Source of the DNA: Branchiostoma floridae | Lineage: Eukaryota > Chordata > Leptocardii > Amphioxiformes > Branchiostomatidae | Assembly: GCF_000003815.2 (NCBI RefSeq) | Contig: NC_049997.1 | Coordinates: 2,284,484-2,348,483 of the forward strand | Reading direction: 5' to 3' | DNA: 64,000 nucleotides | In this document: piece after piece, positions 23,051-63,639 of the stretch | Layout: every line of letters starts with the position of its first letter | How positions within the stretch are numbered: the stretch's first letter is position 1 | Position numbers and translations under genes: made by a program | Notes under the pieces: generated by a model | What the model was told of the DNA's origin: nothing | What the model saw: only the letters and a program-made list of their open reading frames with translations | Database searches by the model: none

Positions 23051-23099
23051 TGTGCAAAAATGGAACACTAATCTGCTTAAAATGACTTCTAACTACTAA

Positions 23100-23840
23100 T
23101 CACACTTATGAGCAAAAATGAATCTTACAAAAAACTCTTCAATAATGGACTCTTCTAGTGCACCCCATGTAGAAAGGTAAAATAGACGACTCCAAAAACA
23201 CTTCCGCTAAGAAATGGAATTTTGAATGATCAGCCGTCCAAAACCATATTTAAAAAAACCCTCTGTGCAAGAATCGACTCTTCCTGTTATACCTCTATGT
23301 AAAGTGGAGCGATCCAAAAATACATCAGCTAAAATAGGACATGGACATAATCACCAAAGTCCACAAAATGAATTTAAAAAAATACCCCCTTCATTGAAGA
23401 ATGGAATCTCCCAGCACACCCTGTTTAAAATTGCACAATAGACAAGTCCAGAAATACTCACAGTACATGGCCTTTTGTATAATAAGCATCCCAGTTCAAA
23501 ACTGAATTTTAATAAAGTTCCCCGTGCATGAATGGACTCTTCCAGATAACACCAGGCTTGCTGATTGGCTGCCGAATCCTCCTCATGTGTAGTCTTCAGG
23601 TGGGGGTCAACTTCCATTCAACAAATGGAATTCAGAATCATCACCAATGTCCAAAACTGAATTTTAAAAAAATTCCCCCTATGTGCAAAAATGGACTGTC
23701 CCAGTAGTAGTCTTATGTCAAGTGGTTCAGTGCAAAAACACTTCCGCTAAAAAGAGCATTGGCATTATCACCAAAGTCTAAAAGTAAATTTTAAAAAACA
23801 CCCCCTGTCCAACAATGGACTCTTCCAGCAAAATCAGCTC
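23100..23840. repeat. Imperfect long tandem repeats
   Basis: Units with AATGGACTCTTCCAG, AAACACTTCCGCTAA and CACCAAAGTC recur at about 23140-23470 and 23520-23830. They look like internal repeats of a dead transposon. Confidence 0.55.
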
Positions 23841-24049
23841 GCTCATTGGTTGGTCATTAATTGCATTTACCTTGTCCCCCAACCACCTGGATGTCTATGG
23901 ACTAGGAAGGTAGGTAGATAATTGGATCTACCTGGCACACCTGTGGCCCTGACACACCAGAATGACCTAGAGGTCGTTGACCTCGGCACCTCAATCTCAC
24001 ATATCCAAAACTCTCCCACAAAACCTCCTTATAGAGCCATTTTGAAGTA

Positions 24050-24450
24050 ATTTATACCAAATATTATACATGGATCCTTTGAATAAGTATCTAGGGCACC
24101 TCTGCCCCAAATTTCAGGTCATTTGGATGTAATACCATGGTAAAGGGGGCCAAATTATACAGTTTTGGTCCAAAAGTTGCAATAAAACCTTAATAAAATC
24201 ATTTAAGGAGCAGATATGAAAAAAATGAAAAAAACACATTTTGGTATTGGCCCACTCTACCCTTGTGCCAAATTTCAGGTCAGTCGGTCTAGGAATGGCG
24301 GAGATGAATCACTTTGAAGATTTGACAGGAGAAAGAAAGAAAGAAAGAAACATTACGAATACAATATATTTCACCATACTATGTATGGCTGAAATATAAT
24401 TACGAATACAATATATTTCACCATACCTATGGTATGGCTGAAATATAATC
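24050..24450 (+). mobile_element. Second copy of the GACAGGAGAAAGAAAG repeat family
   Basis: Shares modules with 22398-22940 and is inverse to 6540-6780. It ends in two tandem ~48-bp hairpin termini (ATTTCACCATAC..GTATGGCTGAAATATAAT) at 24355-24450. Confidence 0.65.
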
Positions 24451-32500: not shown

Positions 32501-35500
32501 TTGAGGATCTTGACTTTACCAACAACCTTTGTATCCAATAGAGGTATGGTAAGATTCATTGTTCTATCTAATAGTAACTGCAACTTTCTTTTAATTTGAG
32601 GTCTTCTAGTCAGAGTATGAGACATATTTCTGCTGTAACTGTGGAAGTTATTTCTTTGTGGTCCCTGATAGAAAAATCATCTTTCAGAGTTCAACAAATA
32701 AAGTGTTTTGATGAGAAATGTTTGCACTTGCAGAGGACCCAAAGGACCCCAACATCTTCTACCACTGGTGCGAGGTGGGGGTGCTGGAGTATAACCCTGA
32801 CACACAGCTGTACCTGGTGCAAAAACTAGACAAGCACGGCAAACTGGCCAACAAACCGCTCCCTGATGACAGTGTCTACACAAGAAATGGTAAGCTAACA
32901 AGCTAAAGTTAGTTACCGACCGGATGCCGGATTGAATTCTGATGATTTCAAGTGGGATCTTTTTTAATCGTGAAAAAAATGTCAGAAAGTTTGCACCAAG
33001 TTGCAGTGAGCACACTAACTGCAGCTGATGTGTTTATTTGAAACAGTCACCTTGAATGAGTTGACAAATATTTATTACAATTTCATAGTTTGCAAGTTGG
33101 TTGAAAAAAGTTTGAATAATGTTTTATTTCTGACTCAGAATGTACTAGACTTTTGGTGGACATGCTGGAAAGAACCTAACACACTTATCAAGAAGAGTAG
33201 GGTGCATTCCTACAAAGGCTAACTACTTAGTAGCGGAAAAAAAACGCTTTTTGTCTAAAGCATAGTGCTTCAGTTTGGACAGAAGAGAGTGGCATTTGAA
33301 CCTCTGACCATACTACTTGTCACTAAGAGCACAGCAAACCTTGATGTACAACATCCTATTTGTCCCCCAGGTCCCCAGACAAGAATCTTCATGAGTACAT
33401 TGTCATCAGTACAGCATGTGGTTCTGTTAGGACAGAAGAGAGTGGCATTTAATTTGAATCTCTTACCCTATTGCTTTTCCACTAAGACCACAGCAAACCT
33501 TGATGTGCAATGTTTTATTTGTCCCCCAGGTCCCCAGACGAGAATCTTCATGAGTAACCAGTACTGGATCCCCAGAGTCCGGCTCATGTTCTGTGCCGAA
33601 GACCCCGCAGTCTTCTCTAGAAGAGTCGCTGACGCCGTGAGGGCGCGAAAGCTGACGGAGTCCCTGATTCGCTACAACCTGTACGTGGACTGCATGCCGA
33701 TGGACGGCATGGGGGAGGTGGAGCCAGCGTCATTCCAGAAGATGTTGAAGTGGGCCAGGGACACGCCTTTCCTTAAAGATAAGAAGTAAGGGTAATTTTC
33801 TCTTGTCTCACAACACGTCTTTATACTCCAGCAAATTAACGCTAGTTCACCTTTATCCGCTGGGTAACCTATATCCGTTGCTTCTAAAATCGTTGTATTT
33901 GGGGATATCACATCAACGGACGTTGGTTTAAAATTGCAACATTTTCGGTACATTGCAGCCCGTCGACTTGATATGCTTAAATGCACTGTTTTGAAACACA
34001 ACGGATTTAGGTTAGCCCGCGGATAAAGGTGAACTAGCGTTACTTGTCTGATTATATTGTGTGGTGAAAAATATTCTTATGACTTATGCACAATCAAAAC
34101 AAATTTATTCAAAACTGATTGTAGGTTTTGATTGACTGTGCATATACATTATAAGTAGTAAGAATTATTGACTCTAAACAACTGTGATGTGTTGGGGTAT
34201 GTTTTCTACTGCAGTTAAGATAAATTCTGCACAGTGGGGCTTTTGAGCTGCTCGATTATAACCTCGCCAGCTAGTTCTGGTCCTCCAACCTTTTGAGCCT
34301 AAATGTGCAAGCAAAAGAAACAATTTCATTTGTGGTCTCTGAGATAATTTTTCCCATTAACACCAATAGCATTAAGAATCCTAATGGGGAGGTTTAAATG
34401 TTACAGCAATTTTCTTTGGAAAAAGAAGTAATATTTCATTAACATTTCTTTTTCTCTAGCTTGGACAACTACATCGAGCGGTTGCGAAAGGAAGTGAACA
34501 TCGACTTTGCGCGCTCCATGAACCGCATGGTGTTCGACAAGGTCGTGGAACAGAACCCAGCCACGTTTGCGTACGTCACAGTGCCCGAGAAGGTGGCAGA
34601 GGTGGTCCCAGAGAAAGGTACGACTTCCTTTTCTTCTTTGTTGATGTTACCTACATTCCTCACGCAATTTAATGTCTTTAAGAACCATTTACAAGCAGAA
34701 TACAAAATGATAGAACATAAATGCTAAAAAAGCTTATTTATGGTTTTATCCACATTCGTGGCCATTTCTGTAAGATGTTGACTACTGCACAAACAAACAA
34801 ACAAACAAACAACGTTTCAGTACCACGGAGATCACCTTTTATTTGTCCTTGGCAATTCAAAGTTTAAAAATGTGTTTGTGGGCCATCCTATCAGAACTTT
34901 TTATGCTTTATACCTTCAAATCCATCTGTTTATTGCTTCATTCATTTGGTGATAATTGTAATGGCTGGATATTCAGCAAAATTTAGCAATTAGGGTTTTA
35001 TTGAAATAGTTTTGTATGATGGTTTCCAGTCTTTTCTACTACATACAAATGTAGGCCTCCTCTTATTTGGGTACTAGTATTTTATATTCAGTTTTCAAAC
35101 TTGCCTAGACTTATGTGATTAAGCCTGTTTTAGCTTATAGCTTGTATTATTTGGTTGCAATGATCATTTAGTGTAACTAATTTACAACATTCTGTCTTAT
35201 AAGGTTTAGGAATAAGGCCTAAAAATATTGATAATTAACTGAATTCCCCCCCCCCCCATAGGATCCTATTCAGATGTTCCAAGCTACCCTTTCAAGGAAC
35301 AGAAGGACAGTTTTGAGTTCAACACTCTCCTGACCAGAGAGGAGAGCATCCTGGCTATGATGAAGGTAGGAACAACATGGTACATTTGTCAATGATGAGA
35401 CAGCCAGAGTCATTTTGCTGGATTTAGATTCATAGTTCATCTAACTTGAATTGGATGGCGTGCATATGTCTATAATCTGGTTTGTTATGCTGAAGGGCGG

Positions 35501-37231
35501 TTATACAGGCTATATAGATACAGTTAACAGATACATGTACAGGTACCTACCAAAGTCAGCTTTAGCCAGCTGATAACTATAAGTTGTCTGATTGTTCAGG
35601 TTTACCCACAGTACCATCAGATTGAAGCGAACAGTTTTGATAAAGAAAATTACAGAGCAGTAGGGATATACTTGATTATAATATTTCTTTTGAAAATGCT
35701 TTCAGCTACATGTAGATGTGCAAAGGTTAGGTATGACAGATATTTCAATGTAATATATTCAGCTACTGTTGTGCGTCTGCAAAGCTGGACCAGGTGTGTT
35801 ATGCTGAAGGGTGGTTATATATACTGGCTAATATACAGATTTGATACTAGTACTGGTAGTATTTGGTAAAAGACAGAATTTGTTGGAATGAATGCTCCTC
35901 TTGACGAAATATACCCATGTTATTCCCAGGTGCGTACGGAGTGTAACAAGGTGTCAGGGATGTCCCTGATACGGTGTTAGTGGTGGGAAAAGGGAGAATG
36001 TTTCAGAATGAATTGTCCTCTTGTTTCCATCCCAGGTGCATATGGAGTGTAACAAGGTGTCCAGTGTGTCAGCTAGATTCACAACGAAGGTTGTGACAGG
36101 TTGTCTAGTGTAATATAGCCAGCTGCTGCCACACCGTGTGTGTCCAAAGCTGGTGCGTTGTTATATAGATATTGATACTGTGTTGTTGGGAAAAGGTAGG
36201 AAATTTAGATTGATGTCCATGTTATTTCCAGGTGCGTACGGAGTGTAACAAGGTGTCAGGCATGTCCCTGTTCCACATCCCCATGCCCAAGTGCATGAGG
36301 CTGGAGGAGTTCGAGCAGACCCAGGGACAGGCCAGCTCACAGGTGGGTGGGGGAAACTTCTTTATTTATTCATTTATTAGGATTCTCCATATACCATGAC
36401 AATTGAGGGTATGGCGAAACAGGTGTCAAAGGTCACCTCTTCAAAGCTGCCATACACACATGTTCGCACGTGTTTACACACGGCGGGGTTATACCGCCCC
36501 TTACGGGGTGATATACCCCGACTCTTTGTAAAAGTCTCGAGTTCAAATCTCAATAGCTACAGTAAAAGGGATAGTCATAGTCTTTGTTTATTTCCAGAGT
36601 TCAAATCTGAACAGTCACTATAAAGTGTTAGTCGTAGTCCTTCATACAAGATTTTAAGGTCCACTGTTTGTTATACTCATTCAAAAGAATAGGGATCAGG
36701 AACTACATTTAACATTTAACATAACAGTGTTTTAGTACTATTGATAATAGTTCTTTCTAGTGATGCTGACTTAAAGAAGAGTGATGGATGTCACTGGAAA
36801 CATTTAATCTCAGAATCTTACCAAGTTTTTGAGATTGTGGAGACTTTAAAAACATTAAATTTATCCACTTTTTAAAAGACAGTCATAACCGGTGGGAAAA
36901 ACAGACAGTCAGTCACTGAAACAGCCAGCACGGTTTCAGGGTTAGGTAGCAAGGAGAAGTTTAAAAATGGATCGACTATCTGATAGAAATGGTTTACATT
37001 TTCTGCAGGTCCAACTGTTCCTGAAGGATATCTGGATCTCCACTCTGCGCGCCGCTATCCGCACCAGCCTGCGTGACGTGGGGAAGGGCTGGTTCAACAT
37101 GCACGAGACTAACTGGGCCGTGTACCAGATCTCAAAACTCAAGCGATTCATGGACATGGTCAAGTTCTCCATGCAGGTAAAACTCTACTTCTACTTCTAT
37201 GGACATATATACACAAATACATACAAAATTC

Positions 37232-37262
<31 letters not shown>

Positions 37263-37361
37263 ACATGCACAAGACAGACTGGGCTGTGTACCAGATCTCA
37301 AAACTCAAGCGATTCATGGACATGGTCAAGTTCTCCATGCAGGTAAAACCTTACACACACA

Positions 37362-37394
<33 letters not shown>

Positions 37395-37493
37395 ACATGC
37401 ACGAGACTAACTGGGCTGTGTACCAGATCTCAAAACTCAAGCGATTCATGGACATGGTCAAGTTCTCCATGCAGGTAAAACCTTACACACACA

Positions 37494-37526
<33 letters not shown>

Positions 37527-38157
37527 ACATGCACGAGACTAACTGGGCGGTGTACCAGATCTCAAAACTCAAGCGATTCATGGACATGGTCAAGTTCTCC
37601 ATGCAGGTGCAGACTTGGGGAAAACACACATACACGCAAACACATGCGCACACACTAGAGGACATTTTACAATCATGCTTTTTACTTGTATTCTGAAAGA
37701 AAGTCAGCTACAGTTTCAAAAAAGCAGTCCTGGCCATGGTACTGAATCACTACCACCTCACTCTCTAACCACATGCCTATATTAATTTCATTGTCATACT
37801 TGGGTTCCAATAGCATTTGATACTGGTGTTTTGGACTGTGATAACTTGGGTTATTACATGGGGTTCTACTGTTATCGTACAGACTTCCTTAGAACCATTT
37901 GAATGCATTTTGAGTGTGCCGTTATTGATAAATTCATGTATTGGATTCGGACATCAGAATGGCTGTTATCTTTTCTGTTTGTTTGAGGACACCAATTTCT
38001 GGATGTGTTTCCTTGGTTGGGTATGACATAAGTGCATCACAACACAGTGTATGCACAACAGCTGACATGCTGACCCTGTTTTGTGCGCAGGACTCCCTGA
38101 GATACCTGGTGCAGGATTCCCTAGTGGCCTTCGTACAGATGACACCTGACACTTGGT

Positions 38158-38216
<59 letters not shown>

Positions 38217-41200
38217 CAACAGTTAACATAATGTCCCTGTTTTGTGCTCAGGACTCCCTGAGATACCTGGTGCAGGATTCCCTAGTGGCCTTCGTACAGA
38301 TGACACTCGACGCCTGTCACTCTGTCCTGGAACTGCAGGAAGACTTCGCCTGGGGCAACGACCTCATCGTCTCCAAGTTCAAGTAAGTCTGAGGCTCTTA
38401 ACCCTCAAACTGTCAAGCCCGGATATATCCGGCACACATATACATGCCTTGTGTCCTGCACCCGGATTATATCCGGGATAGTGTATTTCCCCAAAGTAGC
38501 AGCTTTGCGTGTGTGTAGCGCACGACCCCGAAAGCTAGGGACGTCGGCCTTGTTCGGGGGTTTCTTTTTGGAGGTCAGCGGCCAGCCCTGGCACCAATAG
38601 CATTTTATAGGGCTGAAACTCTGGCAGTTTAAGGGTTAAAAGTTTATTGATAAGAGCCTTTTTGTGTGGATGTCAAACAAGTAACAATTTGAATTGTAGG
38701 TTGATGCAACGGTTACTTTTTCTCTACAAACGGTTTTGGCAGCTTCTCTGCCACCATCTTGAGTAAGTCTGAAGCTCTCAAAAGTTTAAGAACATTTCCT
38801 TGTGTGGATGTCATCAAGTAACAATTTGAATTGTTGGTATGCAACGGTTACGTTTTCTCTACCAATGGTTTTGACAGCTTCTCTGCCGCCATCTTGAGTA
38901 AGTCTGAAGCTCTTAAAAGTTTAAGAACCTTTCCTTGTGTGGATGTCAAACAAGTAACAATTTGAATTGTAAAGTATGGAACCTTTTCTCTACCAATAGT
39001 TTTGGCAGCTTCTCTGCTGCCATCTTCAGGGAAAAAAGATCTTTCTCTTTGTCTTGTCGTGGCATGATTACTAGAACAAGGATGCATTCTCTAAAACTGT
39101 TTCTTCTTGGCCGTTGTGACAAAAAGTGGCAAGGATATGTTCCCAAATGGGACCCCTCGTTACAATTTGAAATTGCACAATTTTAGTAGTTGTATGATAA
39201 AACAATCGGCAGTTTTGATTAGGCATCACTTCCATCTAGAATTGTTAATTTTTTTGGGCAATATTTCCTTTTTTAAATGATTTGGACTGCTAACGTTATG
39301 TCAAAGACATTATAATTGGAGAGCGATAAGTATAACACAATTTTATTTGTGTTACAGGCCCAAGAAGAATGCGCTGTTCCTAGTTGACCTGGTCCTGGAC
39401 AACCAGGGCGTCCATTTCAGCACACCGCTGAACAGTTTTGACACCTCCATGGTGGGGCTGTTCGACAAGGGCATCTCTGCTACAGCTGCTGTGCCACAAC
39501 TGGAGAAGGTATGTAATCAAGAACATATTGGTCCAACCTTGTTATAAATAAAAAGTCTACAAGGACAGATTTAGAGCTGAAAATCACTCACTCACTCACT
39601 CACCATCACTCATTATCATCTGTTCCTTGTCTTGTGAGGGTTTAGATGTGCTAAATAAATGTAGATAAAATGTTGTACTTTAATGGCTAATTGTCATTTA
39701 GGATTACAGCAAACTTTTTTCAGTCATGCTGCAATTTTGCTTGGTTTAAGTTGAAGGTCACTACAGCTTATACTTATTGTACATGGTCTCCATCTTATGT
39801 TTAGAAGGTATCCCCCTGCTGTTCTGATACAGTAATAAATCTAGATAAAGGATACACACAAAAGGATACACACTCAGGTTTTCTTTTCTTGCATTATGTT
39901 ATAAATTTAACTTTATTATTCAAATGAACAAATTGATAATGAAAAGGAAATAGATAGATCTACAGATGCAAACATAGACCTTGGATCCAAAGTAAAAAGC
40001 TTCTTTTATATATATATAATAGTAAGATAAAATTTTCTGAAAAATAATTTGAAATGTTCTGTTTTTTACAGTATGTTCTGGAGGATATGTTCTGGTCCGG
40101 AACGCCTCTGCTAGAGTCAGTCGGCCAGCATGAGCCATTTGTGGAGGAGTTGAGAGAAACTCTGCGGAGAGCAATCAGGAAGGCTTTCATCCCGATGAAG
40201 GCATACGCACAGCAGTACGAGCAGTACCTGGAACTCAACGCCTTGGACATCAACGCCTACATCAAGTAAGTTCTACCAAATTGAAATAAGCTGTTTCCCA
40301 GTTTGAATTGCGCATGCACAGTGGGATGTGTTGTGGGTAATATGTCAAAGTTGAAGGCCCTTGAGAGACAAACAAAGCAGGTCTGGACATTGTATCAAGC
40401 ACAGTCTAGAAAAGAATTTCAACTCAGAAAATATCATATATAATATGTTATCAATGGTAAAACTATGATCATTGTGTGACGCATTTGTTTTGTTTTATCA
40501 CAGAACTGACAACTCACAGAAATTGACAGCTTTCATTTCAAATGCATTGATTCATTAGATTTATGAAACAATAATATTAAGCAGACTTTGTTGATATTTT
40601 TAGAACAATTTTTAGAACATGCTTTTGCTAATCCTATGAAAAACGTCATTCATTTGATTAATTTTTTACCATCTATAGGGAGTTTGACTCCCAGGAGAAC
40701 ACAGCTGCGCAGGTGAAGGCTGAGGTGGACCTGCACCTGCGGGAAAAGGAGAAGATCGAGAACACCATCCCGTCCAGCGTGGTGATTGGTCCGTTCTGGC
40801 TGAGCACGGACAGCGTCCGACAGAATCTGGCCAAAAAGAGGAAGGCTCTCGCCAGTGCCGTGTTGGAACTGCTGGCCAAGAAGTTAGCTGTCCAGGCAAA
40901 TGAGGTAAAGACAGATAAATGAAAGAAAAATAAAATTTGATATAAAAGATCATTTTGTAAATGGATGAATATAATTGTATTGCTATATTAATTTTCAGTC
41001 CCTTCAGTAGCTTTACAGAGCTGTGAAGAATTTAGGTTGATCCCTGCATGGAAACAATTGTATGGCATTGAATGGGCAAGTGGCTATGGTAGTGGATACA
41101 AAATTGAAAGGTCCTGGGTTCTACTCTTGGTATTCCTTACTAGATGATGCGTCCTTTGGAAAGACACTTAACACATCTTCCCTCATTTGGTTGGGGAGGT

Positions 41201-53200: not shown

Positions 53201-56200
53201 TCTTTGCAAAGTTTCACGTTTTTTTTATATCCTTACAATAAGATATCGATTTTTATCCGTCATAGCGGACGGAATAGTCAAAATTTTTTCCATCCCCAGC
53301 TGCAAAGGACCCATACTATTTCTTGTTAGAGCTCTTTTCTAAGACATCACCTATGTTAAGATTTAAAAAGTTGTTTTCTGTGCCTATAGTTGGCAGGGCT
53401 TGTAGGGCTGGTCAGGGGCAAGCTGTCCAAGATGCAGCGTGAGATCCTCTCGGCTCTGATTGTGATTGAGGTGCACGCCCGCGATGTGGTCGCCAACATG
53501 GTGGAACTGGAGGTCAAGAACGTCAACGACTTTGAGTGGATCAGTCAGCTCAGGTAAGGAGACTAGAAAATTACATAATTTAAAAATAAAAATAGATGCT
53601 AAAAACGCAAAGAACACACATGATCAAGAGGATATAAGATCACTCGAAAGCTTGTGAGTTTTTCTTCATTGATATTTTCCCAAACTTAGCATGCTGTATT
53701 CCTGACTTCGTCTTGAAATATATTGGAAACATAGCTTAGTGACTCCATGTATTATTCATATCCCTATAGTACATAGTTTGGAAGATGCCAAATTGTAACA
53801 GAGAGGTAGTCAATGAAAAATTAAGAATCTGCCTATTATAAGTAGAAATACTATATTTTATATACTATATAGAAGGTAGATTCCCTCACTTCAGACATAT
53901 GATTATGAGAAGCACTGACAAATTCATATTTCTCATGCCTTTTGACAAATTGGCTATTGCTAAACCCATAGGCATGCATACAGTCCTAAATTTTCACCAT
54001 TGCCAAGAAGAAAGAAAGCCGAACTTCTGTGTTAGACTAGATCTGTGATATGTTTGTGTACCTGTACTTAGCTCGGTTGGGCAAAAATGTACAATAAAGG
54101 TCTTAATTCAATTCAACATCATGTCCGTCACTGAAGGTATTACTGGGTGACCGACAACCTGTACGTGAGAGCCGTGAATGCGGAGTTCCCCTACGGTTAC
54201 GAGTACCTCGGGAACACAGGACGTCTCGTCATCACCCCACTAACTGACAGGTGCTACCTCACACTCACCGGAGCGCTCCATTTGAAGTTTGGGGGTGCAC
54301 CAGCTGGTCCAGCCGGAACTGGGAAAACTGAAACCACCAAGGTGCGTCTACAAGTTTTTTTTTTATTCATTTTATTTATTCATTCTAGAAAATATTGACT
54401 GTGTTCTTTCATGATATGAAACTTGTAATAAAACTTGACTGACCCTTTAATGAAGACTTAGACAAGGGAAACAACTCACCAGTTAAGTTTTAGGGCTTTG
54501 GTCTTCCTTTATTGGTATAGAAACTTTCTTCTAACACAATACTTTTAGAACATAAGCCTCATGTACATTTTGTAGAAGTAGTACATGTAGTAGTAGTAGT
54601 ATGAAGTATTTGAAAAATACAGCTAAAAAATGTTGGCTGAAAATTTGAATGGTGAATAGTTTTTATGAGCTCTTATGCTAACAATACTTGTTATCCCCAC
54701 TTATAGGATCTGGGTAAGGCCATGGCTGTGCAGTGTGTGGTGTTCAACTGTTCTGATAATGCTTGTTATCCCCACCTATAGGATCTGGGTAAGGCCATGG
54801 CTGTGCAGTGTGTGGTGTTCAACTGTTCTGATAATGCTTGTTGTCCCCACCTATAGGATCTGGGTAAAGCCATGGCTGTGCAGTGTGTGGTGTTCAACTG
54901 TTCTGATAATAATGCTTGTTGTCCCCACCTATAGGATCTGGGTAAAGCCATGGCTGTGCAGTGTGTGGTGTTCAACTGTTCTGATAATGCTTGTTATCCC
55001 CACCTATAGGATCTGGGTAAAGCCATGGCTGTGCAGTGTGTGGTGTTCAACTGTTCTGATAATGCTTGTTATCCCCACCTATAGGATCTGGGTAAGGCCA
55101 TGGCTGTGCAGTGTGTGGTGTTCAACTGTTCTGATAATAATGCTTGTTGTCCCCACCTATAGGATCTGGGTAAAGCCATGGCTGTGCAGTGTGTGGTGTT
55201 CAACTGTTCTGATAATGCTTGTTATCCCCACCTATAGGATCTGGGTAAGGCCATGGCGGTGCAGTGTGTGGTGTTCAACTGTTCTGATAATAATGCTTGT
55301 TGTCCCCACCTATAGGATCTGGGTAAGGCCATGGCTGTGCAGTGTGTGGTGTTCAACTGTTCTGATAATGCTTGTTATCCCCACCTATAGGATCTGGGTA
55401 AAGCCATGGCTGTGCAGTGTGTGGTGTTCAACTGTTCTGATAATAATGCTTGTTGTCCCCACCTATAGGATCTGGGTAAAGCCATGGCTGTGCAGTGTGT
55501 GGTGTTCAACTGTTCTGATAATGCTTGTTATCCCCACCTATAGGATCTGGGTAAGGCCATGGCGGTGCAGTGTGTGGTGTTCAACTGTTCTGATAATAAT
55601 GCTTGTTGTCCCCACCTATAGGATCTGGGTAAGGCCATGGCTGTGCAGTGTGTGGTGTTCAACTGTTCTGATAATGCTTGTTATCCCCACCTATAGGATC
55701 TGGGTAAAGCCATGGCTGTGCAGTGTGTGGTGTTCAACTGTTCTGATAATAATGCTTGTTGTCCCCACCTATAGGATCTGGGTAAAGCCATGGCTGTGCA
55801 GTGTGTGGTGTTCAACTGTTCTGATAATGCTTGTTATCCCCACCTATAGGATCTGGGTAAGGCCATGGCTGTGCAGTGTGTGGTGTTCAACTGTTCTGAT
55901 AATGCTTGTTGTCCCCACCTATAGGATCTGGGTAAGGCCATGGCTGTGCAGTGTGTGGTGTTCAACTGTTCTGACCAGCTGGATTTCATGGCCATGGGCA
56001 AGTTCTTCAAGGGTCTGGCCAGCGCCGGCGCGTGGGCCTGCTTTGACGAGTTCAACAGGATTGACATTGAGGTGTTGTCTGTGGTCGCTCAGCAGATCAT
56101 CACTATTCAGAAGGCCCAGCAACAAAAGGTATGGTCGCCAATGTCTGTAATTTTAGCTTCTGGTATGTAACACTTGTTCACCTTTATCCGTGAGGTATCG

Positions 56201-59200
56201 TATATCCGTTGTTAAAACAAAAAATGGGTATTTAGGGATATCAAGTTGACAAATGGTAGTTTCAAGTTGCAATTTTTCCAAATATTGTAATTTGAAACCA
56301 CTGCCCATCTATGCGATATCACTAAATACCCTTTTTTTAAAAACAACGGATATAGGTCACCTTATAGATAAAGGTGAGTGAGTGTTATCGTTTTGGGGGG
56401 ATAAGAGATAAGATGGAAAAATTTTTAAGATTGGCCAACTCACTGGCAGCCCTAGAAAAAGGCCTAGAGAAAAAATGTTGTGATTATGGTTACCCAACCA
56501 GCTCTAGCAAAAACCTCCTAGCCAAAGCCTTTTTAGGGGGTTGGCTACTGAAAAGGGACATGATCTGACATGACATGGACTCTAGGTTAGATGAATAAGT
56601 TAGTGAAGGGAAGGAAATGGGGGCAACTTTCAAAACCCACCCTCTGGTATTTCTCGTTGCTGAGAAGGTTCGTTCTGTCAGTGGAGGACGTCCCACCAAC
56701 ACCCGATAACAGACCCCGTACCTAACCTGTAAGATGTCTTCTACACTGGAGAGAAGGGATACCAATGATTAGGATACGCTACTCGTACAAATTTTTTTAC
56801 TGTGATAACACTTTTTCCTCCACTCAGTTGGACCGGTTCATGTTTGAGGGAGTTGAGATCGCCCTGAAGGCCGCCTGCGCCGTGTTCATCACCATGAACC
56901 CTGGGTACGCCGGCCGTACGGAGCTCCCCGACAACCTGAAGGCGCTGTTCCGTCCGGTCGCCATGATGGTGCCGGACTACGCCATGATTGCCGAGATCTC
57001 GCTCTACTCCTTTGGGTTCTCGGACGCCAAGGTGCTGGCAAAGAAGATCACCACGACGTTCAAACTGTCATCGGAACAGCTCAGCTCACAGGTGGGTGCG
57101 GTTTTGTATTGCTGAACTTTCAGAGCCATCTTTTCTTTTTAATGATTTTGCTTAGTGCATGGCCATTGACTACTTCTAGGCACCAAACTACACTCACTGT
57201 AGCAGCATCTCTTCTCCCTAAGTCGGGAACACTGAATTTCGATAAGTTCAACTTACTGACTCAATAGGCTTTGTGAGGCTGCTTGGGAAATTCCCTGCCC
57301 CAGATCGAATAGTTTGATCTGCTCACACTGGGAAGGACTCCTGAGTTAAACCTTTATCTTACGATAAATTTCAGGACCACTACGATTTTGGTATGCGAGC
57401 GGTGAAGACCGTGATCTCGGCAGCGGGTAACCTGAAGCGGGAACACCCTGACATGAATGAGGAGCTCATCTGTCTGCGTGCCATCCGGGACGTCAACGTG
57501 CCAAAGTTCCTGGTGGAGGATCTCAAGCTGTTCACAGGTATGCAAATTTGTTCACAGGTATGCAAATCAGTAAACAAACATACAAGTTATAAAAGAATTT
57601 GATATTATTGTTGTTGTTGTTAGATGTAGAGTTCAGCACCAAGGAAAGACCTTAAAGTTAAAATTGATTCAAAGTAAAATTCATTTTCACAGCTTAAACC
57701 ACTTCTAGAAATAAGCTGCACAAGCTGTGGATCTTATTTAAGTTAAGATCCATTGTTTCATGGACCTTAGAGATAATTTGTACACTTTTCTTGACCAGTG
57801 CCATGTAATTGTAATTCAAGTTGTAGGCTAGTATACCTGTATACTATGCTAAGTATCTTATTTTATTGTAATGTGACTCTTGGAAGATTGGTGCACATAT
57901 GGTGTTTCACTAAAATAGAGTTTTCTCATAATCATAAACATGAACATTAACATTAACATAAACAAAAAATAATTTTCTCCAACACAGGTATCGTGTCGGA
58001 CTTGTTCCCGAAGATCAAAGAGGAGCCAATCGACTATGGCACGCTGGACTCATCACTGGTTGCCAGCTGTGAGAAACTGGGCATCAAGGATGTCCGAGGT
58101 AAGATCTTAGTAACAACTACTTGTAAATTATTGGTTTTGTTTGTGGATACATAATTTGGTGGTTACACTTAGTCTAGTTAAACCTCTTTCGGTTCACAGA
58201 TGAAGCAAATAGTAATACAGCACATTTGTGGTGTCAGAGTTCAGAGCAAAAATTGGGAAAATGAACCCATTGCAAACATTTCAAGATTTACAATACAACA
58301 CTTTCAACTACAAGTAGAACCCATCTCTAACTTGCTGCACGTATTTCTGATAAAGCCATGTAGCCGTGATATTGACCTTTCATTTCAATTCTGGCATTAC
58401 TTTTTGATCCAAAGCACATTGTTTTGGTTCTATATTCTGAAGTGTTTTGGTCTATCTCTCACTGCTGCACTTCAAACAAACAAGTGTTTTAGACCAACTT
58501 GTTGAATGATTGTCAAATGGCTATGGTGTTTTTGTTCACACCCATGTCACAAGGATTACTTTAAGAACACTTTTTTAATGTTTGGCCACTTTTTACATAT
58601 AAAAGATCATATCAATATAAATTTGCACTTTTTTGAAGGGCACATGGCACATCAACAGGTTTGATAGAAGTTGAAATAAAAAATTCCTGACAATATTTCC
58701 TGTTTTTTCACACATTCTGATCAGGACCTGATGGTGAGTTCAAGTAACAATTGAATTATAGTCTCTAATTTTCTATTCCCTGTAAGAGAATTTGTTGTTA
58801 GAATTATTTCTAGAATAACTTGATACCCAATCCTTTTTTAATAAAACGATCAATGGTCACGTTTGTTAATGGTAATATTAAATATTCTGCACAATTACTT
58901 TAAAGGAATGCTTTTTTCACTTGAAGTGTCAAATGTGGGTCCTGTTTTCTGAAGTCTTTTACAATAGCTCAGGTCTCTAGCCAGCGTCCGTTTTTCTGTC
59001 AATTGACGGAAATTTGCTGCGTCGGACGGAAATATTTTCAAACCAATCCGTCAACCTTGACGGACAAAAATCCTTGGTGGAAGCTACAGGCGGCTTGGGG
59101 ACGCCGTCCACGGTCGGAAAAGCCACACACTGTTTGTTTTGCTATTGTTATGATTGTCGACAATGTGTGTCAGCGCCCTTTCGCATACGATAATCTCATT

Positions 59201-62200: not shown

Positions 62201-63639
62201 TTTCTTCATTATCGAAGAATTTTGATCAAACAATGAAAGATCTCAAGACATCTGAAACTATGAAGCAAATACTAAGGCTAGTACCTATATCCGCAGGGTG
62301 TTTAAGTGCGCTAAATGTGCTGTTTTTCAATACAACGGATATAGGTTACTTCACAGATAAAGGTAAACATCAAGCGTTATGTGCATGCTGTAACATTGCT
62401 TCTAAACGTTTGGCAATGCTGCGTGACTTAATGCATTCTCTTTGGCCACGGCTTAAAGCACTTTTCTCTGCATGCTCCGTTCGTAATCTAAGAATGTTTA
62501 TGGAACAATAAAAGATTACAAAATATTTTAACTTGAACTATGAAGCAAATACAACATTGTGTAATGTTACTGATCCTTGTCTCTGCCCCCCTCCCCCCTA
62601 GGGTTCATCACCAAATGTATTCAGCTGTATGAGACCACAGTGGTGAGGCACGGTCTCATGTTGGTTGGCCCGACCTGTTCAGGGAAAACCATGTGCTACA
62701 AGACACTGCAGGCTGCCATGACAGCCCTAAAGGTAGGAAGCAGTAAGGAAACAGACATTAAGTATGATCCTCTAATTCTTGCATTGCTATAATGATTTAT
62801 GATGCAATGAATTTGCATCTATCTAAAGTTTAACAATAAGACATGTGCAATTATCATTCATGAACATTTCACATCAAGCAATTTGTCCTATTTGATGTAT
62901 TGTGGTAGACCTCTGAAAAATTGCCCTTGTGTGGCTTGTATCTCAATAAAGTTGATGTTTGAAATTCTAGTAATTCCATCAATCCATTCATTCATTCATT
63001 ACTTCCTTAAACTGATAGCCGTATTTTTTTTACTCTATTGAGCAAGGAACTGTGATTGTTACTAATTGAAAACAATAATCAATATTGATTCCTACATTGA
63101 ATTCTATGTTATATAGCCCAATTCTTAATACTACTATTTAGACAAAGAACTGTGATTGTTAATTGAAGATTGCTACTCGACGTTTATTTCATATGGATGT
63201 CTACGATGATTGTAATAATTCCCCCCACCCCAAGGAGAGCCAGCAGTGGGTGGTGGTGTGCACAAGGCCATGTCCATCATCCTAGCCACTAGCCATTTTA
63301 CACCACCCTTATGATTGTATTCACTGGATTCTGTTGTTTCCCCATCCCAGGGAGAACCAGCAGTGCGTGGGGGTGTGTACGAACTCCAAGTCTATCACCA
63401 TGTCGTGCATCAAAGTTATCTGTATTTACTGGATCCTATTATTTTACCCCACCCCAGGGAGAGCCGGCAGTGGGCGGGGGTGTGTACGAGGCTGTGCACG
63501 TGAACGTGGTGAACCCCAAGTCCATCACCATGGGTCAGCTGTACGGAGAGTTTGACCTGCTGACCCACGAGTGGACCGACGGGATCCTGTCCACCCTGGT
63601 CCGAGAGGGCACCTCCGCGACAGACTCAGACAAGCGCTG
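29401..63639 (+). CDS. DNAH1: Axonemal inner-arm dynein heavy chain, 5' part (34 exons)
   Basis: Thirty-four GT-AG exons with matching phases encode about 1,887 residues; the gene runs off the right edge. Residues 1-900 form the tail; the linker runs to about 1,470 with the family motif [15 protein letters not shown] near 1182. AAA1 has Walker A GPAGTGKT (1525-1532), Walker B CFDEFNR (around 1577) and sensor [14 protein letters not shown]2 has GPTCSGKT (1806-1813). The segments [20 protein letters not shown] and [20 protein letters not shown] match DNAH1 better than the DNAH3/7/12 or DNAH2/10 groups as I recall them. DNAH1 is a microtubule motor of the inner dynein arm in motile cilia and sperm tails. 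Many exon borders are tandemly copied into introns (separate entries). Confidence 0.9.
30161..30233 (+). CDS. DNAH1: DNAH1 exon 2
   Basis: TTTCCAG acceptor, AAAAG/GTAAC donor; 24 codons plus one base ([14 protein letters not shown]). Confidence 0.7.
30995..31169 (+). CDS. DNAH1: DNAH1 exon 3
   Basis: TTTTCCAG acceptor in phase 1, AAG/GTAAGA donor in phase 2. Encodes [20 protein letters not shown] and a Pro/Lys-rich stretch of the tail. Confidence 0.85.
31532..31633 (+). CDS. DNAH1: DNAH1 exon 4
   Basis: TTTTCTAG acceptor and CACAG/GTACAG donor, phase 2 both sides. Encodes [20 protein letters not shown]. Confidence 0.85.
32040..32227 (+). CDS. DNAH1: DNAH1 exon 5
   Basis: CTTCAG acceptor, AGAA/GTAAGC donor. 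Encodes [18 protein letters not shown] and [14 protein letters not shown], a block typical of DNAH1-type tails. Confidence 0.9.
32734..32889 (+). CDS. DNAH1: DNAH1 exon 6
   Basis: CTTGCAG acceptor, AATG/GTAAGC donor, phase 1 both sides. Encodes [18 protein letters not shown]. Confidence 0.9.
33270..33529 (+). repeat. Exon 7 5'-border duplication (~160 bp)
   Basis: GGACAGAAGAGAGTGGCATTT, the ACAGCAAACCTTGATGT run and CCCCCAG/GTCCCCAGAC occur twice; the first copy has a decoy acceptor at 33370/33371 and about 34 bp of exon 7. Confidence 0.9.
33530..33785 (+). CDS. DNAH1: DNAH1 exon 7
   Basis: GTCCCCCAG acceptor in phase 1, AAGAA/GTAAGG donor in phase 2. Encodes [20 protein letters not shown] and a long helical segment. 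Its 5' border is duplicated upstream at 33371. Confidence 0.9.
33837..34042. mobile_element. MITE family 'TTCACCTTTATCCG', full copy A
   Basis: 206 bp with ~45-bp inverted ends (TAACGCTAGTTCACCTTTAT and its inverse), the strongest-preserved member in the window. Intron 7 of DNAH1. Confidence 0.9.
34460..34617 (+). CDS. DNAH1: DNAH1 exon 8
   Basis: TTCTCTAG acceptor, AAAG/GTACGA donor. Encodes [20 protein letters not shown], part of the tail. Confidence 0.9.
35262..35365 (+). CDS. DNAH1: DNAH1 exon 9
   Basis: Acceptor after a C-tract (CCATAG), donor AAG/GTAGGA, leaves in phase 0. Encodes [16 protein letters not shown]. Confidence 0.9.
35493..36185 (+). mobile_element. Three LINE 3'-end relics
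   Basis: Relics at about 35493-35550, 35757-35870 and 36107-36185 carry GAAGGGCGGTTATA, CAAAGCTGG and TATATAGATA landmarks of the LINE end at 46128-46217. They interleave with the exon 10 border copies. Confidence 0.6.
35930..36231 (+). repeat. Exon 10 5'-border copies (2 decoys)
   Basis: Decoy acceptors at 35930 and 36036 are followed by GTGCGTACGGAGTGTAACAA or a variant; the true exon starts at 36232. Confidence 0.9.
36232..36342 (+). CDS. DNAH1: DNAH1 exon 10
   Basis: TTTCCAG acceptor and CACAG/GTGGGT donor, phase 0. Encodes [20 protein letters not shown]. Two truncated copies of its start lie upstream (35930, 36036). Confidence 0.9.
37009..37176 (+). CDS. DNAH1: DNAH1 exon 11
   Basis: TTCTGCAG acceptor and ATGCAG/GTAAAA donor, 56 codons in phase 0. 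Encodes [20 protein letters not shown]. Its last ~80 bp with the donor recur three more times downstream, so the true donor could be any of 37177, 37343, 37474 or 37607; only the first gives a contiguous dynein frame without repeats. Confidence 0.85.
37096..37610 (+). repeat. Exon 11 3'-border array, 4 donors
   Basis: The last ~80 bp of exon 11, its CAG/GTAAAA or CAG/GTGCAG donor and a (CA)n tract recur four times, with donors at 37177, 37343, 37474 and 37607 (spacing 166, 131, 133). Spacings are not multiples of three apart from none, so read-through shifts frame. Confidence 0.93.
38087..38251 (+). repeat. Exon 12 5'-border duplication with (CA)n
   Basis: A decoy acceptor before 38091 is followed by ~60 bp nearly identical to exon 12, then ~57 bp of CA repeat (38157-38213) and the true acceptor at 38252. 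Confidence 0.92.
38252..38382 (+). CDS. DNAH1: DNAH1 exon 12
   Basis: TGTGCTCAG acceptor, TCAA/GTAAGT donor, leaves in phase 2. Encodes [20 protein letters not shown]. Its first ~60 bp are duplicated at 38091. Confidence 0.9.
38381..39035 (+). repeat. Intron 12 tandem repeats from the exon 12 donor
   Basis: AGTAAGTCTGA-GCTCT, the exon 12 donor context, recurs at about 38762 and 38895 within ~135-bp units that also share CAAGTAACAATTTGAATTG and GCAGCTTCTCTGCC (three units from about 38650). Confidence 0.8.
39358..39508 (+). CDS. DNAH1: DNAH1 exon 13
   Basis: GTGTTACAG acceptor, GAGAAG/GTATGT donor. Encodes [20 protein letters not shown]. Confidence 0.92.
40072..40265 (+). CDS. DNAH1: DNAH1 exon 14
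   Basis: TTTTTTACAG acceptor, ATCAA/GTAAGT donor. Encodes [20 protein letters not shown] and a helix ending near [17 protein letters not shown]. Confidence 0.92.
40679..40904 (+). CDS. DNAH1: DNAH1 exon 15
   Basis: ATCTATAG acceptor in phase 2, GAG/GTAAAG donor. Encodes [20 protein letters not shown] followed by a coiled helix. Confidence 0.92.
41040..41335 (+). mobile_element. tRNA-derived SINE, plus orientation, diverged
   Basis: Head with AGTGGCTATGGTAGTGGA and a B-box-like GGTCCTGGGTTCTACTC, body with TTTGGAAAGACACTTAACAC..CTTCCCTCA parallel to the 4496-4842 SINE. Intron 15 of DNAH1. Confidence 0.65.
41456..41575 (+). CDS. DNAH1: DNAH1 exon 16
   Basis: TCTTCCAG acceptor and ATGAG/GTTTGT donor, 40 codons in phase 0. 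Encodes [18 protein letters not shown]. Confidence 0.92.
42024..42106 (+). CDS. DNAH1: DNAH1 exon 17
   Basis: ATCCTCAG acceptor, CCAA/GTAAGT donor. Encodes [20 protein letters not shown]. Confidence 0.92.
42491..42604. mobile_element. Truncated MITE of the TTCACCTTTATCCG family at exon 18 acceptor
   Basis: ATATCCGTTG, TATTTAGGGATATCAAGTCGAC and CTACAACATTT match the left half of copies at 33837 and 56168; the right half is missing and the exon 18 acceptor follows at once. Confidence 0.72.
42605..42746 (+). CDS. DNAH1: DNAH1 exon 18
   Basis: ATTTTCAG acceptor, CTACAG/GTCTGT donor. Encodes [16 protein letters not shown] truncated MITE copy ends directly at the acceptor. Confidence 0.92.
43295..43450 (+). 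CDS. DNAH1: DNAH1 exon 19
   Basis: CATTTCAG acceptor, first donor GAT/GTAAGT at 43451, 52 codons in phase 0. Ends in [14 protein letters not shown]. The last 44 bp plus donor and 16 intron bases are repeated as a 60-bp array, so the real exon end is ambiguous; every choice stays in frame. Confidence 0.85.
43407..44170 (+). repeat. 60-bp array with 13 identical 5' splice sites
   Basis: Twelve extra near-identical 60-bp units each repeat the exon 19 end, GAT/GTAAGTACTATTATTACC. Donors lie every 60 bp from 43451 to 44171. Units are divisible by three and free of stops, giving a 20-residue repeat ([14 protein letters not shown] plus VSTIIT). A diverged unit remains at 44423-44452. Confidence 0.97.
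44750..44862 (+). repeat. Exon 20 5'-border duplication
   Basis: Decoy acceptor (TTCCAACAG) at 44749/44750 followed by ~58 bp of exon 20 with few changes, then the true exon at 44863. Confidence 0.9.
44863..45061 (+). CDS. DNAH1: DNAH1 exon 20
   Basis: TTTCTTACAG acceptor, CCAG/GTGGGC donor in phase 1. Encodes [18 protein letters not shown] and [17 protein letters not shown]. The start is duplicated at 44750. Confidence 0.92.
45476..46338 (+). repeat. Exon 21 5'-border copies (2 decoys)
   Basis: CTCTCGCAG/GCTGCCAGCTGG occurs at 45476, 45646 and truly at 46339; the preceding ~110 bp (CAGTTGATGTTTTCCAAATC onward) is also shared. A LINE fragment lies between the last decoy and the exon. Confidence 0.9.
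45683..46217 (+). pseudogene. 5'-truncated LINE: RT C-terminus and 3' end
   Basis: An open frame to 46120 encodes the C-terminal tail of a non-LTR retrotransposon ORF2 ([41 protein letters not shown]). It is followed by the 3' end with GGCTATATAGATACAGATAC repeats. The catalytic RT motifs are absent, so it is a dead fragment, apparently Jockey/CR1-like. Confidence 0.85.
46339..46592 (+). CDS. DNAH1: DNAH1 exon 21
   Basis: TCTCTCGCAG acceptor in phase 1, GAGCAG/GTTGGT donor. Encodes [20 protein letters not shown] and [20 protein letters not shown], a conserved linker segment. Truncated copies of its start occur at 45476 and 45646. Confidence 0.93.
46610..47060 (+). repeat. Intronic minisatellite, ~100-130 bp unit
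   Basis: Imperfect units with GACTCAACGGCTTTTCCTT, CACCACTTCTC and TTTAAAACCACTAAGGA just after exon 21. Confidence 0.8.
47061..48997 (+). other. Rest of intron 21
   Basis: A ~215-bp tandem duplication at about 48110-48480 (GTTCAGATCAGTTGGATTCAG, short GTTCA runs). Otherwise nothing is recognised. Confidence 0.5.
48998..49210 (+). CDS. DNAH1: DNAH1 exon 22
   Basis: ATCTAG acceptor and ACACAG/GTGTGA donor, 71 codons in phase 0. Encodes [20 protein letters not shown] and [20 protein letters not shown] of the linker. Confidence 0.93.
49270..49645. mobile_element. Unclassified repeat with ACTTGCCCGA blocks
   Basis: ACTTGCCCGA and its inverse TCGGGCAAGT occur many times, and the flanks (TGCCTGGCTCAGG / CCCTGCCTGGCT) resemble a duplicated edge. 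Intron 22. Confidence 0.5.
50228..50661 (+). repeat. Exon 23 5'-border array, 4 decoy acceptors
   Basis: Decoy starts at 50230, 50341, 50446 and 50559 precede the true one at 50662; spacing about 103-113 bp. Each has ~60 bp of exon 23, diverges at GAGCCCCTCTAA (in-frame stop) and is followed by (AAAC)n. Confidence 0.95.
50662..50826 (+). CDS. DNAH1: DNAH1 exon 23 (linker motif)
   Basis: TTCCTCCAG acceptor and CCACAG/GTAACG donor. Encodes [20 protein letters not shown] and MDRMWRKIM, the hallmark dynein linker motif. Four copies of its first ~65 bp precede it. Confidence 0.94.
51382..51609 (+). CDS. DNAH1: DNAH1 exon 24
   Basis: CCCCCCAG acceptor and GCGAAG/GTGGGC donor, 76 codons. Encodes [20 protein letters not shown] and HLRKCFENM, a conserved linker block. 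Confidence 0.94.
52070..52249 (+). CDS. DNAH1: DNAH1 exon 25
   Basis: CCTTGTAG acceptor and CCAGAT/GTATGT donor, 60 codons. Encodes [20 protein letters not shown]. Its 3' border is repeated downstream as a ~58-bp array. Confidence 0.9.
52225..52560 (+). repeat. Exon 25 3'-border array, ~58-bp unit
   Basis: ACCATCATTGGACGGTCCCT..TATCCAGAT/GTA recurs about six times with donor-like GT at 52250, 52310, 52370, 52428, 52485 and 52541. Copies are more diverged than in the exon 19 array, and an in-frame TGA lies in the first repeat. Confidence 0.88.
52590..52885 (+). repeat. Exon 26 5'-border duplication (~200 bp)
   Basis: CTCCTACAACCATACAACCA, the CTTGA run and CTTCACAG/ACAAAGAGAA are present twice; the decoy acceptor is at 52697. 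Confidence 0.9.
52886..53023 (+). CDS. DNAH1: DNAH1 exon 26
   Basis: TTCTTCACAG acceptor and GAGCAG/GTATTT donor. Encodes [21 protein letters not shown] diverged copy of its start lies at 52697. Confidence 0.93.
53390..53553 (+). CDS. DNAH1: DNAH1 exon 27
   Basis: GCCTATAG acceptor and CTCAG/GTAAGG donor, leaves in phase 2. Encodes [20 protein letters not shown] and [10 protein letters not shown]. Confidence 0.93.
54137..54341 (+). CDS. DNAH1: DNAH1 exon 28 (AAA1 Walker A)
   Basis: ACTGAAG acceptor in phase 2 and CCAAG/GTGCGT donor. Encodes [20 protein letters not shown] then [20 protein letters not shown] and ends with [12 protein letters not shown], the catalytic AAA1 P-loop. Confidence 0.95.
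54690..55924 (+). repeat. 75/78-bp array with 17 identical 3' splice sites
   Basis: Sixteen units (ten of 75 bp, six of 78 bp with an extra AAT) each carry CCCCACCTATAG/GATCTGGGTAA and 51 bp of exon 29, from 54707 to the true exon at 55925. In the dynein frame every unit ends in its own acceptor TAG, a stop. The long open frame across the array is in another frame and is not a gene. Confidence 0.97.
55925..56128 (+). CDS. DNAH1: DNAH1 exon 29 (AAA1 Walker B)
   Basis: CCTATAG acceptor, CAAAAG/GTATGG donor, 68 codons. Encodes [20 protein letters not shown] and [20 protein letters not shown]. It is the last of 17 tandem acceptor copies and the only one that continues the exon. Confidence 0.95.
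56168..56387. mobile_element. MITE family 'TTCACCTTTATCCG', copy B
   Basis: Inverted ends TAACACTTGTTCACCTTTAT and GATAAAGGTGAGTGAGTGTTA; interior GGGTATTTAGGGATATCAAG. Intron 29. Confidence 0.88.
56828..57091 (+). CDS. DNAH1: DNAH1 exon 30 (AAA1 sensor I)
   Basis: CCACTCAG acceptor and TCACAG/GTGGGT donor, 88 codons. Encodes [20 protein letters not shown] and [20 protein letters not shown]. Confidence 0.95.
57195..57340 (-). mobile_element. SINE internal fragment
   Basis: ACTGACTCAATAGGC, GGGAAATTCCCTGCCCC and GTTTGATCTGCTC parallel 59960-60060 of the complete SINE. Confidence 0.55.
57375..57537 (+). CDS. DNAH1: DNAH1 exon 31
   Basis: AATTTCAG acceptor and CACAG/GTATGC donor, phase 1. Encodes [20 protein letters not shown] and [20 protein letters not shown]. 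The donor is repeated 20 bp downstream (57558). Confidence 0.95.
57524..57570 (+). repeat. Exon 31 donor duplicated (20-bp unit)
   Basis: TTCACAG/GTATGCAAAT occurs at 57531 and again at 57551, giving donors at 57538 and 57558. Confidence 0.9.
57988..58098 (+). CDS. DNAH1: DNAH1 exon 32
   Basis: CAACACAG acceptor and CCGAG/GTAAGA donor, phase 1 both sides. Encodes [20 protein letters not shown]. Confidence 0.94.
58975..59300. mobile_element. Unclassified repeat with TCCGTC/GACGGA blocks
   Basis: CCAGCGTCCG, GTCAATTGACGG and GACGGAAAT blocks, flanked by TAGCCAGC and GCTGGCTAAAG. A relative with CCGTCATAGCGGACGGAA lies at 53095-53310 in intron 26. Confidence 0.45.
59619..60373. mobile_element. 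MITE family 'TTCACCTTTATCCG', copy C, split by a SINE
   Basis: Left end TAACGCAAGTTCACCTTTAT with TTTAGGGATATCAAGTC, right end GGTGAACTAGCGCTA with ATCCCTAAATAGCC; the halves are separated by the SINE at 59794-60292. Intron 32. Confidence 0.85.
59794..60292 (-). mobile_element. tRNA-derived SINE (copy 2), poly(A) tail, nested
   Basis: Minus-strand head at 60292 with B-box-like GGTTCAAATCC, body nearly identical to 4600-4842, then a longer 3' part and a ~25-nt A tail (T run 59794-59819). Confidence 0.85.
62098..62552 (+). repeat. Intron 32 tandem duplication with MITE piece
   Basis: ATGCTGTAACAT, GCGTGACT-AA-GCATTCTCTTTGG and ACTATGAAGCAAATAC appear in both 62098-62275 and 62382-62552. A truncated TTCACCTTTATCCG-family MITE (62279-62379) lies between. 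Confidence 0.8.
62602..62732 (+). CDS. DNAH1: DNAH1 exon 33 (AAA2 Walker A)
   Basis: CCCCCCTAG acceptor in phase 1 and CTAAAG/GTAGGA donor. Encodes [20 protein letters not shown] and GPTCSGKT; the cysteine replaces a residue usually small or Gly in this loop. Confidence 0.95.
63230..63457 (+). repeat. Exon 34 5'-border copies (2 decoys)
   Basis: CACCCCAAG/GAGAGCCAGCAGTGGG at about 63234 and CATCCCAG/GGAGAACCAGCAGTGCG at 63351 precede the true CACCCCAG/GGAGAGCCGGCAG at 63458. The second copy also contains the AACCCCAAGTC/CATCACCATG part of the exon. Confidence 0.92.
63458..63639 (+). CDS. DNAH1: DNAH1 exon 34 (last in window)
   Basis: CACCCCAG acceptor, GCTG/GTAGGT donor, leaves in phase 2. 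Encodes [20 protein letters not shown]. Two truncated copies of its start lie at about 63234 and 63351. The gene continues beyond the window. Confidence 0.94.

Follow-up and report, generated by a model that had tools for sequence, protein, structure and literature searches.

Tandem duplications spanning exon edges are over-frequent in DNAH1 and other dynein genes of the lancelet Branchiostoma floridae

Introduction

Why should one gene carry duplicated splice sites at more than a dozen of its exon edges? The question is raised by a stretch of 64,000 nucleotides of Branchiostoma floridae (contig NC_049997.1, positions 2,284,484 to 2,348,483, forward strand), hereafter the window. There, the original prediction, made from the letters alone, described a dynein gene with tandem copies of exon sequence plus splice site at 14 exon edges, and proposed a process that favours splice junctions or co-transcriptional templating. 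It also assigned the repeats to the mirage type of amphioxus, which agrees with the accessible text of two papers (PMC3087553, PMC3902484). According to that text, mirages are published for the lancelet globins BflGb6 and BflGb9, with Adh3 and other loci cited (PMC3087553), and for PGBD5, with TnC cited (PMC3902484). The accessible part of a huntingtin paper mentions tandem repeats in scaffolds (PMC2206037). Among titles and abstracts found by searching the open-access literature, none was recognised as testing edge preference across a whole gene or a genome. Outside the window, about 290 kb of sequence was examined, almost exclusively from dynein genes. The earlier observation is confirmed, and its interpretation is partly supported.

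The DNAH1 gene and its exon model

The gene at 30995-63639 on the plus strand encodes the axonemal dynein heavy chain DNAH1 (a motor of the cilium and sperm tail), its best PDB matches being mammalian DNAH1. Peptides from this interval scored 1030 bits against DNAH1 and 599 against the next dynein kind, and another comparison gave 598 versus 244. A manual model of the 5' part comprises 32 exons with GT-AG at all introns and an open reading of 1806 codons without a stop, and a spliced-alignment script, given the model protein, recovers the identical 32 exons. The model starts at 30995 and excludes the first exon(s) upstream. Beyond the window, the gene runs to about 102964 in continued window coordinates. 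A total of 73 exons were modelled, after the removal of four spliced-alignment micro-exons shorter than 20 bases. The 3' model is without at least two exons predicted from mammalian DNAH1 (about 30 and 22 residues), and a few edges are thus unlabelled. Exons are given here as E numbers, to which two must be added to obtain the exon numbers of the original prediction.

Two spots in the 3' half deserve mention. An exon at 102162-102368 (continued coordinates) has an in-frame TGA at a position of tryptophan in mammalian DNAH1, which may be an allele, an error or a real stop. Additionally, a gap of 100 N within exon 51 (83533-83632, continued coordinates) adjoins a partial copy of that exon, and the assembly may be wrong at this place.

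The window holds further features around and within the gene. A minus-strand neighbour gene, Ig/FN3-like by eye, contains at 15108-15394 a degenerate duplicate (74%) that reaches an apparent acceptor, also by eye, and is a candidate for an older mirage. Local repeat clusters of 54-265 bp with 73-98% identity occupy an apparently non-coding stretch at 22210-24355. Imperfect hairpins of about 215 bp at 33834-34045 and 56168-56387, with ends related by eye, resemble MITE-type elements. A tRNA-family match of 35 bits lies at 4767-4838 on the minus strand.

Mirage edges in the window

Extra direct copies including the splice site were found at all 14 edges listed by the original prediction, using TRF, self-BLAST and core-pattern counts. 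All lie on the plus strand and were detected by the core-pattern count, which used a border core of 19-28 nt with at most about 25% mismatch; the other methods are named with each edge. Among the acceptors, E5 (33530; 33256-33556; self-BLAST) has two copies, 84% alike at an offset of 154, covering 120 intron and 27 exon bases. Three copies are present at E8 (36232; 35915-36270; self-BLAST), and two, 93% alike with a CA run between them, at E10 (38252; 38056-38306; self-BLAST). E18 (44863; 44706-44918; self-BLAST) has two copies that are 81% alike, E19 (46339; 45396-46376; self-BLAST) has three, and E24 (52886; 52611-52917; self-BLAST) has two that are 85% alike. At E21 (50662; 50182-50719; TRF and self-BLAST), five copies recur with a period of about 103-113 bp, given by TRF as about 105 bp x 5. 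The largest array belongs to E27 (55925; 54683-55974; TRF), in which a unit of 75 or 78 bp is present 17 times, with higher-order periods of 153 and 228 bp. E32 (63458; 63223-63492; self-BLAST) has three copies, the first with AA instead of AG.

Donors are affected as well. The E9 donor (37176; 37095-37608; TRF and self-BLAST) has four copies at a 132-bp period with 97% matches and CA runs between them (TRF, 132 bp x 2.8). The E17 donor (43450; 43406-44464; TRF and self-BLAST) has 13 copies of a 60-bp unit with 98% matches that extend to 44186, followed by a relic at 44422-44464; GT is present in every copy, and the 13 copies can be read through in the dynein frame without a stop. At the E23 donor (52249; 52214-52577; TRF and self-BLAST), there are about six degenerate 58-bp copies with 68% matches (TRF, 58 bp x 6.2), three of which pass the core pattern. 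The E29 donor (57537; 57529-57567; TRF) has two copies of 20 bp with 100% matches across the array. The weakest of the 14 is the E10 donor (38382; 38379-39029; TRF), whose 22-nt core has three occurrences within the gene; the additional two, at 38759 and 38894 within a degenerate 135-bp array, carry 3 and 4 mismatches.

The predicted ranges hold, the smallest unit being 20 bp (E29) and the largest about 190 bp, with 2 to 17 copies. The share of affected introns, put at about 40%, comes to 11/31 (35%) in the window model. Self-BLAST, which is blind to exons, recovers 12 of the 14 edges as clusters, counting the E9 donor, where the BLAST copy stops 2 bases into the intron. The E10 and E29 donors were recovered by pattern counts and not as self-BLAST edge clusters. 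The 98% matches over the 13 copies of E17 and the periods of 75, 153 and 228 bp in E27 show homogenisation or block growth in the arrays.

Properties of the copies

The core-pattern count yielded 51 extra copies, and AG or GT is kept in 50 of these, which had been chosen by core similarity including the dinucleotide; only the first E32 copy deviates. Among aligned edge-spanning copies, the dinucleotide is kept in 30/31 overall and in 9/10 of the older ones. This alignment had no second copy at E18, E29 and the E46 acceptor and matched a run of N at E51, and these rows enter no total. Selection that keeps the splice signals in the copies was considered and found no support, as retention in 9/10 older copies is not clearly above drift. 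Identity in these 10 copies is 89% for the exon part (274/308) and 83% for the intron part (550/659), which fits drift with one constrained copy and not preserved function.

When one copy per edge is used, the translation of E16-E27 aligns with mammalian DNAH1 over all 749 residues with a single one-residue gap, which sits inside E24 apart from the mirage junctions. Judging from this end-to-end alignment, splicing most likely uses the copy that is continuous with the remainder of the exon.

Orientation is uniform at the edges. None of the 12 inverted local repeat clusters, several of which are hairpins, lies at an edge, compared with 22/40 direct clusters (Fisher p 0.0005). A genome search with the E5 unit, the single unit searched by a method that skips very common words, returned two matches, namely itself and its neighbour. 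A dispersed repeat or transposon was thus rejected for the E5 unit, and no known dispersed element is present there.

Excess at exon edges over chance placement

For the chance test, clusters of local direct duplications (offset of at most 3 kb, low complexity removed) were held fixed and the exon map was shifted circularly. Repeat pairs that contained N or were of low complexity, as well as paralog exons that were short, low-scoring or located in the poorly aligned N-terminal part, were dropped before counting. Cluster totals vary with filters and span (20-21 for the window part, 40-41 for the gene). The E10 donor, whose array was counted as non-edge, and the E29 donor, which falls under the BLAST cut-off, are absent as edge hits.

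In the window part, 12/20 clusters lie at an edge against 7.3 expected (88/4000 circular shifts as high), and at 80% identity or more the figures are 11/13 against 4.4 (0/4000). The 3' half beyond the window gave 10/19 against 5.9 (92/4000). Over the whole gene, 23/40 clusters are at an edge against 13.5 expected (5/3000), and 19/26 against 8.45 (0/3000) at 80% identity or more. Both of these whole-gene counts still include the E51 donor and E52 acceptor, which were otherwise dropped on account of the assembly gap at 83533-83632. Pairs that are at least 90% alike gave 9/14 against 4.0 (14/3000). Restricting the window alone to pair offsets of at most 400 left no clear excess (7/17 against 5.9, 1504/4000); with 80% identity or more added, the count was 6/11 against 3.3 (269/4000). 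Under a stricter placement, each cluster was placed independently, exon-interior copies were barred, GC-rich places were favoured and the artefact edges were left out. The gene then showed 22/40 clusters at edges against 12.1-13.9 expected and, among clusters of 80% identity or more, 18/26 against 7.6-8.7. The edge excess is about 2-fold, part of which may be detection because one copy is held constant by selection.

Several candidate causes were tried and rejected. Weighting by GC leaves the excess in place, which rejects GC-driven placement. The E9 and E10 arrays contain CA runs, and that of E21 contains an AAAC run; over the gene, 4/23 edge clusters are near a microsatellite against 2.8 by chance. 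Moreover, mirage acceptors are no different in polypyrimidine content, C content or exon-head GC. With neither these differences nor an association with microsatellites, a sequence trigger was not found.

The 3' half beyond the window adds 10 edges with copies. Six of these 10 are at least 80% identical across a stretch that includes 5 or more bases on either side of the edge; the E68 donor copy is 91% alike, and the E42, E46 donor and E54 copies are 73-79% alike. Over the modelled gene, 24/144 edges and 21/72 introns are affected, excluding the E51/E52 gap artefact and including the E10 and E29 donors. With 17 acceptors and 7 donors, both kinds of site are involved, as had been predicted.

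The two kinds of edge are not equally affected in DNAH1. Acceptors are hit by 17/40 clusters against 7.9 expected (0/4000), whereas donors show no excess (5/40 against 7.9), and the same holds in each half of the gene. The predicted process favouring splice junctions thus stands in so far as the edge rate exceeds chance placement in both halves, and has to be narrowed in DNAH1 to acceptors alone. Of the intron bases within 40 bases of an acceptor, 17.6% are in copies at least 80% alike, compared with 1.9% within 40 bases of a donor and 1.8-14.8% by bin for deeper intron bases.

Other dynein genes and chromosome position

Three paralogs (C13:6.3 Mb, C5:13.6 Mb and C3:13.2 Mb), chosen as the best protein matches after DNAH1, offer 50 reliable exons and four clusters, with 1/100 edges affected. 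This sole hit is weak (72% identity). Against the 24/144 edges of DNAH1, the contrast gives a Fisher p of 2e-5, and a uniform genome-wide phenomenon is ruled out by the 1/100 edges in these three genes. Local duplications per 10 kb number 5.7 in DNAH1, 2.9 and 1.9 in its flanks, and 1.5, 0.56 and 0 in the three paralog regions.

DNAH1 is nevertheless not one exceptional gene. One homologous exon (AAA1 region) was surveyed in 23 loci of 3 kb, which by position correspond to 18 dynein genes. In 6/18 genes (DNAH1, C11:20.5 Mb, C1:0.22 Mb, C13:20.0 Mb, C7:5.6 Mb and C12:4.2 Mb), this exon is overlapped by a duplication, and in 12/18 it is not. At two loci, L008 and L016, the edges were read by eye; the L008 exon is on the minus strand of its locus, and the repeat therefore counts as an acceptor case. 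Two chromosome-3 dynein exons (G000:C3:9140113-9140268 and G000:C3:13238260-13238415) have near-equal score and identity against DNAH1 and may reflect a recent gene duplication.

The 10-kb stretches of the C1, C13 and C7 genes were compared in the same manner, after dropping clusters beyond the span of reliable exons. Further edge hits appeared in two of the three; the C13 stretch, with two reliable exons only, gave no additional one. In these stretches, 8/11 clusters are at an edge against 3.67 expected (25/4000), the cluster that had selected each locus being excluded, and 8/41 edges are affected against 1/100 in the three paralogs above (Fisher p 2e-4). Long donor arrays occur in the C1:0.22 Mb gene, whose exons come from spliced alignment to DNAH1. 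Counting the functional copy, a donor unit of 37 or 43 bp is present 32 times and another of 38 or 48 bp 15 times, at 1725-2927 and 6608-7185 of the locus (L043). Every copy has an intact GT, and the 32 cores are near-identical, again a mark of homogenisation or block growth.

This gene also differs in the edge affected, with 5 donors and 1 acceptor against 6 donors and 17 acceptors in DNAH1 (Fisher p 0.018, post hoc); the DNAH1 ratio is 17:7 with the E10 donor. For a single edge type in the other dynein genes, the figures are not decisive, with 3 against 2.3 for acceptors and 5 against 2.3 (163/4000) for donors. The acceptor polarity of DNAH1 is not general.

The distance to a contig end is 0.2-5.6 Mb for the six mirage-bearing genes and 3.9-14.3 Mb for the 12 without. 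This order holds in 69/72 pairs (exact one-sided p 7/18564, or 0.0004, post hoc). The position of mirage genes nearer contig ends is a lead only, since the pattern was noticed and then tested in the same 18 genes.

Discussion

All copies are in direct orientation and adjoin the functional edge. Most retain the dinucleotide, divergence increases with age, and edges carry more of them than chance placement would give, both in DNAH1 and among other dynein genes. A mutational preference for exon edges is the best reading of these facts and a rather probable one, with survivorship combined with detection as its main rival. The repeats belong to the mirage minisatellites and are local and direct tandem duplications at the DNA level, roughly 20-200 bp in size, straddling exon edges. 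They may arise frequently in certain genes, possibly in distal chromosome parts, through slippage, unequal exchange or replication repair. Duplications inside exons would be purged by selection. Those spanning an edge would be tolerated, as splicing can go on using the copy attached to the remaining exon; the extra copies would become intron and leave the mRNA unchanged. As survival alone fails to explain the excess over mid-intron, we infer that duplications begin more readily near exon edges, and the preferred edge may differ by gene (3' splice sites in DNAH1, donors in C1:0.22 Mb). A more specific version, to which only a small chance is given, is a regional mutational process of lancelets, strongest distally, in which exon edges are duplicated with a polarity characteristic of each gene (acceptor in DNAH1, donor in C1:0.22 Mb). 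One possible mechanism is that replication forks coming from one side falter at the entry to a GC-rich exon, in which case the preferred edge would depend on fork direction relative to transcription.

The main rival holds that duplications originate uniformly, that those in exon interiors are lost, and that edge-spanning ones stay visible longer because the functional copy is conserved. The greater likeness of older copies in their exon part and the size of the excess, about 2-fold, speak for it. However, the excess remains when exon-interior placement is barred, and it persists at 90% identity or more, where age-dependent detection should matter least. Furthermore, a uniform rate with survival would not give acceptors at twice the expected number and donors at or under expectation. 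This explanation is regarded as possible but doubtful. Far less credit is given to copying templated by RNA or R-loops and aimed at splice junctions during transcription, which the original prediction had entertained as co-transcriptional templating and which found no support. The location of the copies at splice sites and the 3' splice site preference of DNAH1 would suit such copying; yet the counted copies span the unspliced junction and adjoin their source, none of the inverted clusters lies at an edge, the E5 unit, the one searched, has no match elsewhere in the genome and another gene shows the opposite edge preference.

The remaining two alternatives appear about as improbable. Misassembly could have made or inflated the arrays, as is suggested by the gap beside the partial copy in exon 51, by a misassembled mirage in a draft lancelet assembly and by assemblies that differ in copy number, both described in the accessible text of the earlier reports (PMC3087553, PMC3902484). 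Against this, many copies differ from the functional one, from several per cent up to 30%, and similar repeats elsewhere in lancelets are backed by trace data, resequencing or RT-PCR in the same text (PMC3087553, PMC3902484). The exact copy numbers of the arrays may nonetheless be wrong. The extra sites could also be functional, as alternative or recursive splice sites maintained by selection. AG or GT in 50/51 extra copies would agree with this, as would the AG|GT at the junctions of the E8 copies and the 13/51 alternative sites in the window that would add in-frame, stop-free sequence (the extra acceptor of E5 and all but one of the 13 extra E17 donors). On the other hand, 38/51 alternative sites would shift the frame or introduce a stop, and the dinucleotide of older copies has no clear surplus over drift.

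If edges are truly preferred, tandem duplication would constitute a directional supply of duplicate splice sites, which bears on intron lengthening and on new introns. Moreover, 13, 17 or 32 near-identical splice sites in a row provide a natural experiment on the choice made by the spliceosome. Lancelet gene annotation is at risk at such arrays.

Comparison with known systems

The subtelomeric minisatellites of vertebrates are tandem arrays with units of tens of bases that grow by blocks. The higher-order periods of E27 and the possible distal location resemble them; in contrast, the DNAH1 arrays lie on exon edges, and the distal preference is a post hoc one from 18 genes. A different parallel is intron gain by tandem genomic duplication under the AGGT proto-splice-site model, which, as outlined in the accessible text, likewise starts from a tandem duplication with splice signals (PMC3087553). 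Unlike that model as presented there, DNAH1 shows the copying of existing edges, and its E16-E27 protein keeps the mammalian length bar one residue.

The closest likeness is to the mirages of amphioxus, which in the accessible text are direct tandem copies over 5' or 3' exon boundaries with units of tens to about 160 bp, in many copies with AG/GT retained and at several lancelet loci (PMC3087553, PMC3902484). The mirages described there affect one boundary per globin gene and two in PGBD5, whereas 24/144 edges are affected in DNAH1 (PMC3087553, PMC3902484). The kind of repeat is thus already known. The additions made here to what that text describes are the density, the excess over chance, which has been measured, the documented contrast from gene to gene and a possible distal bias.
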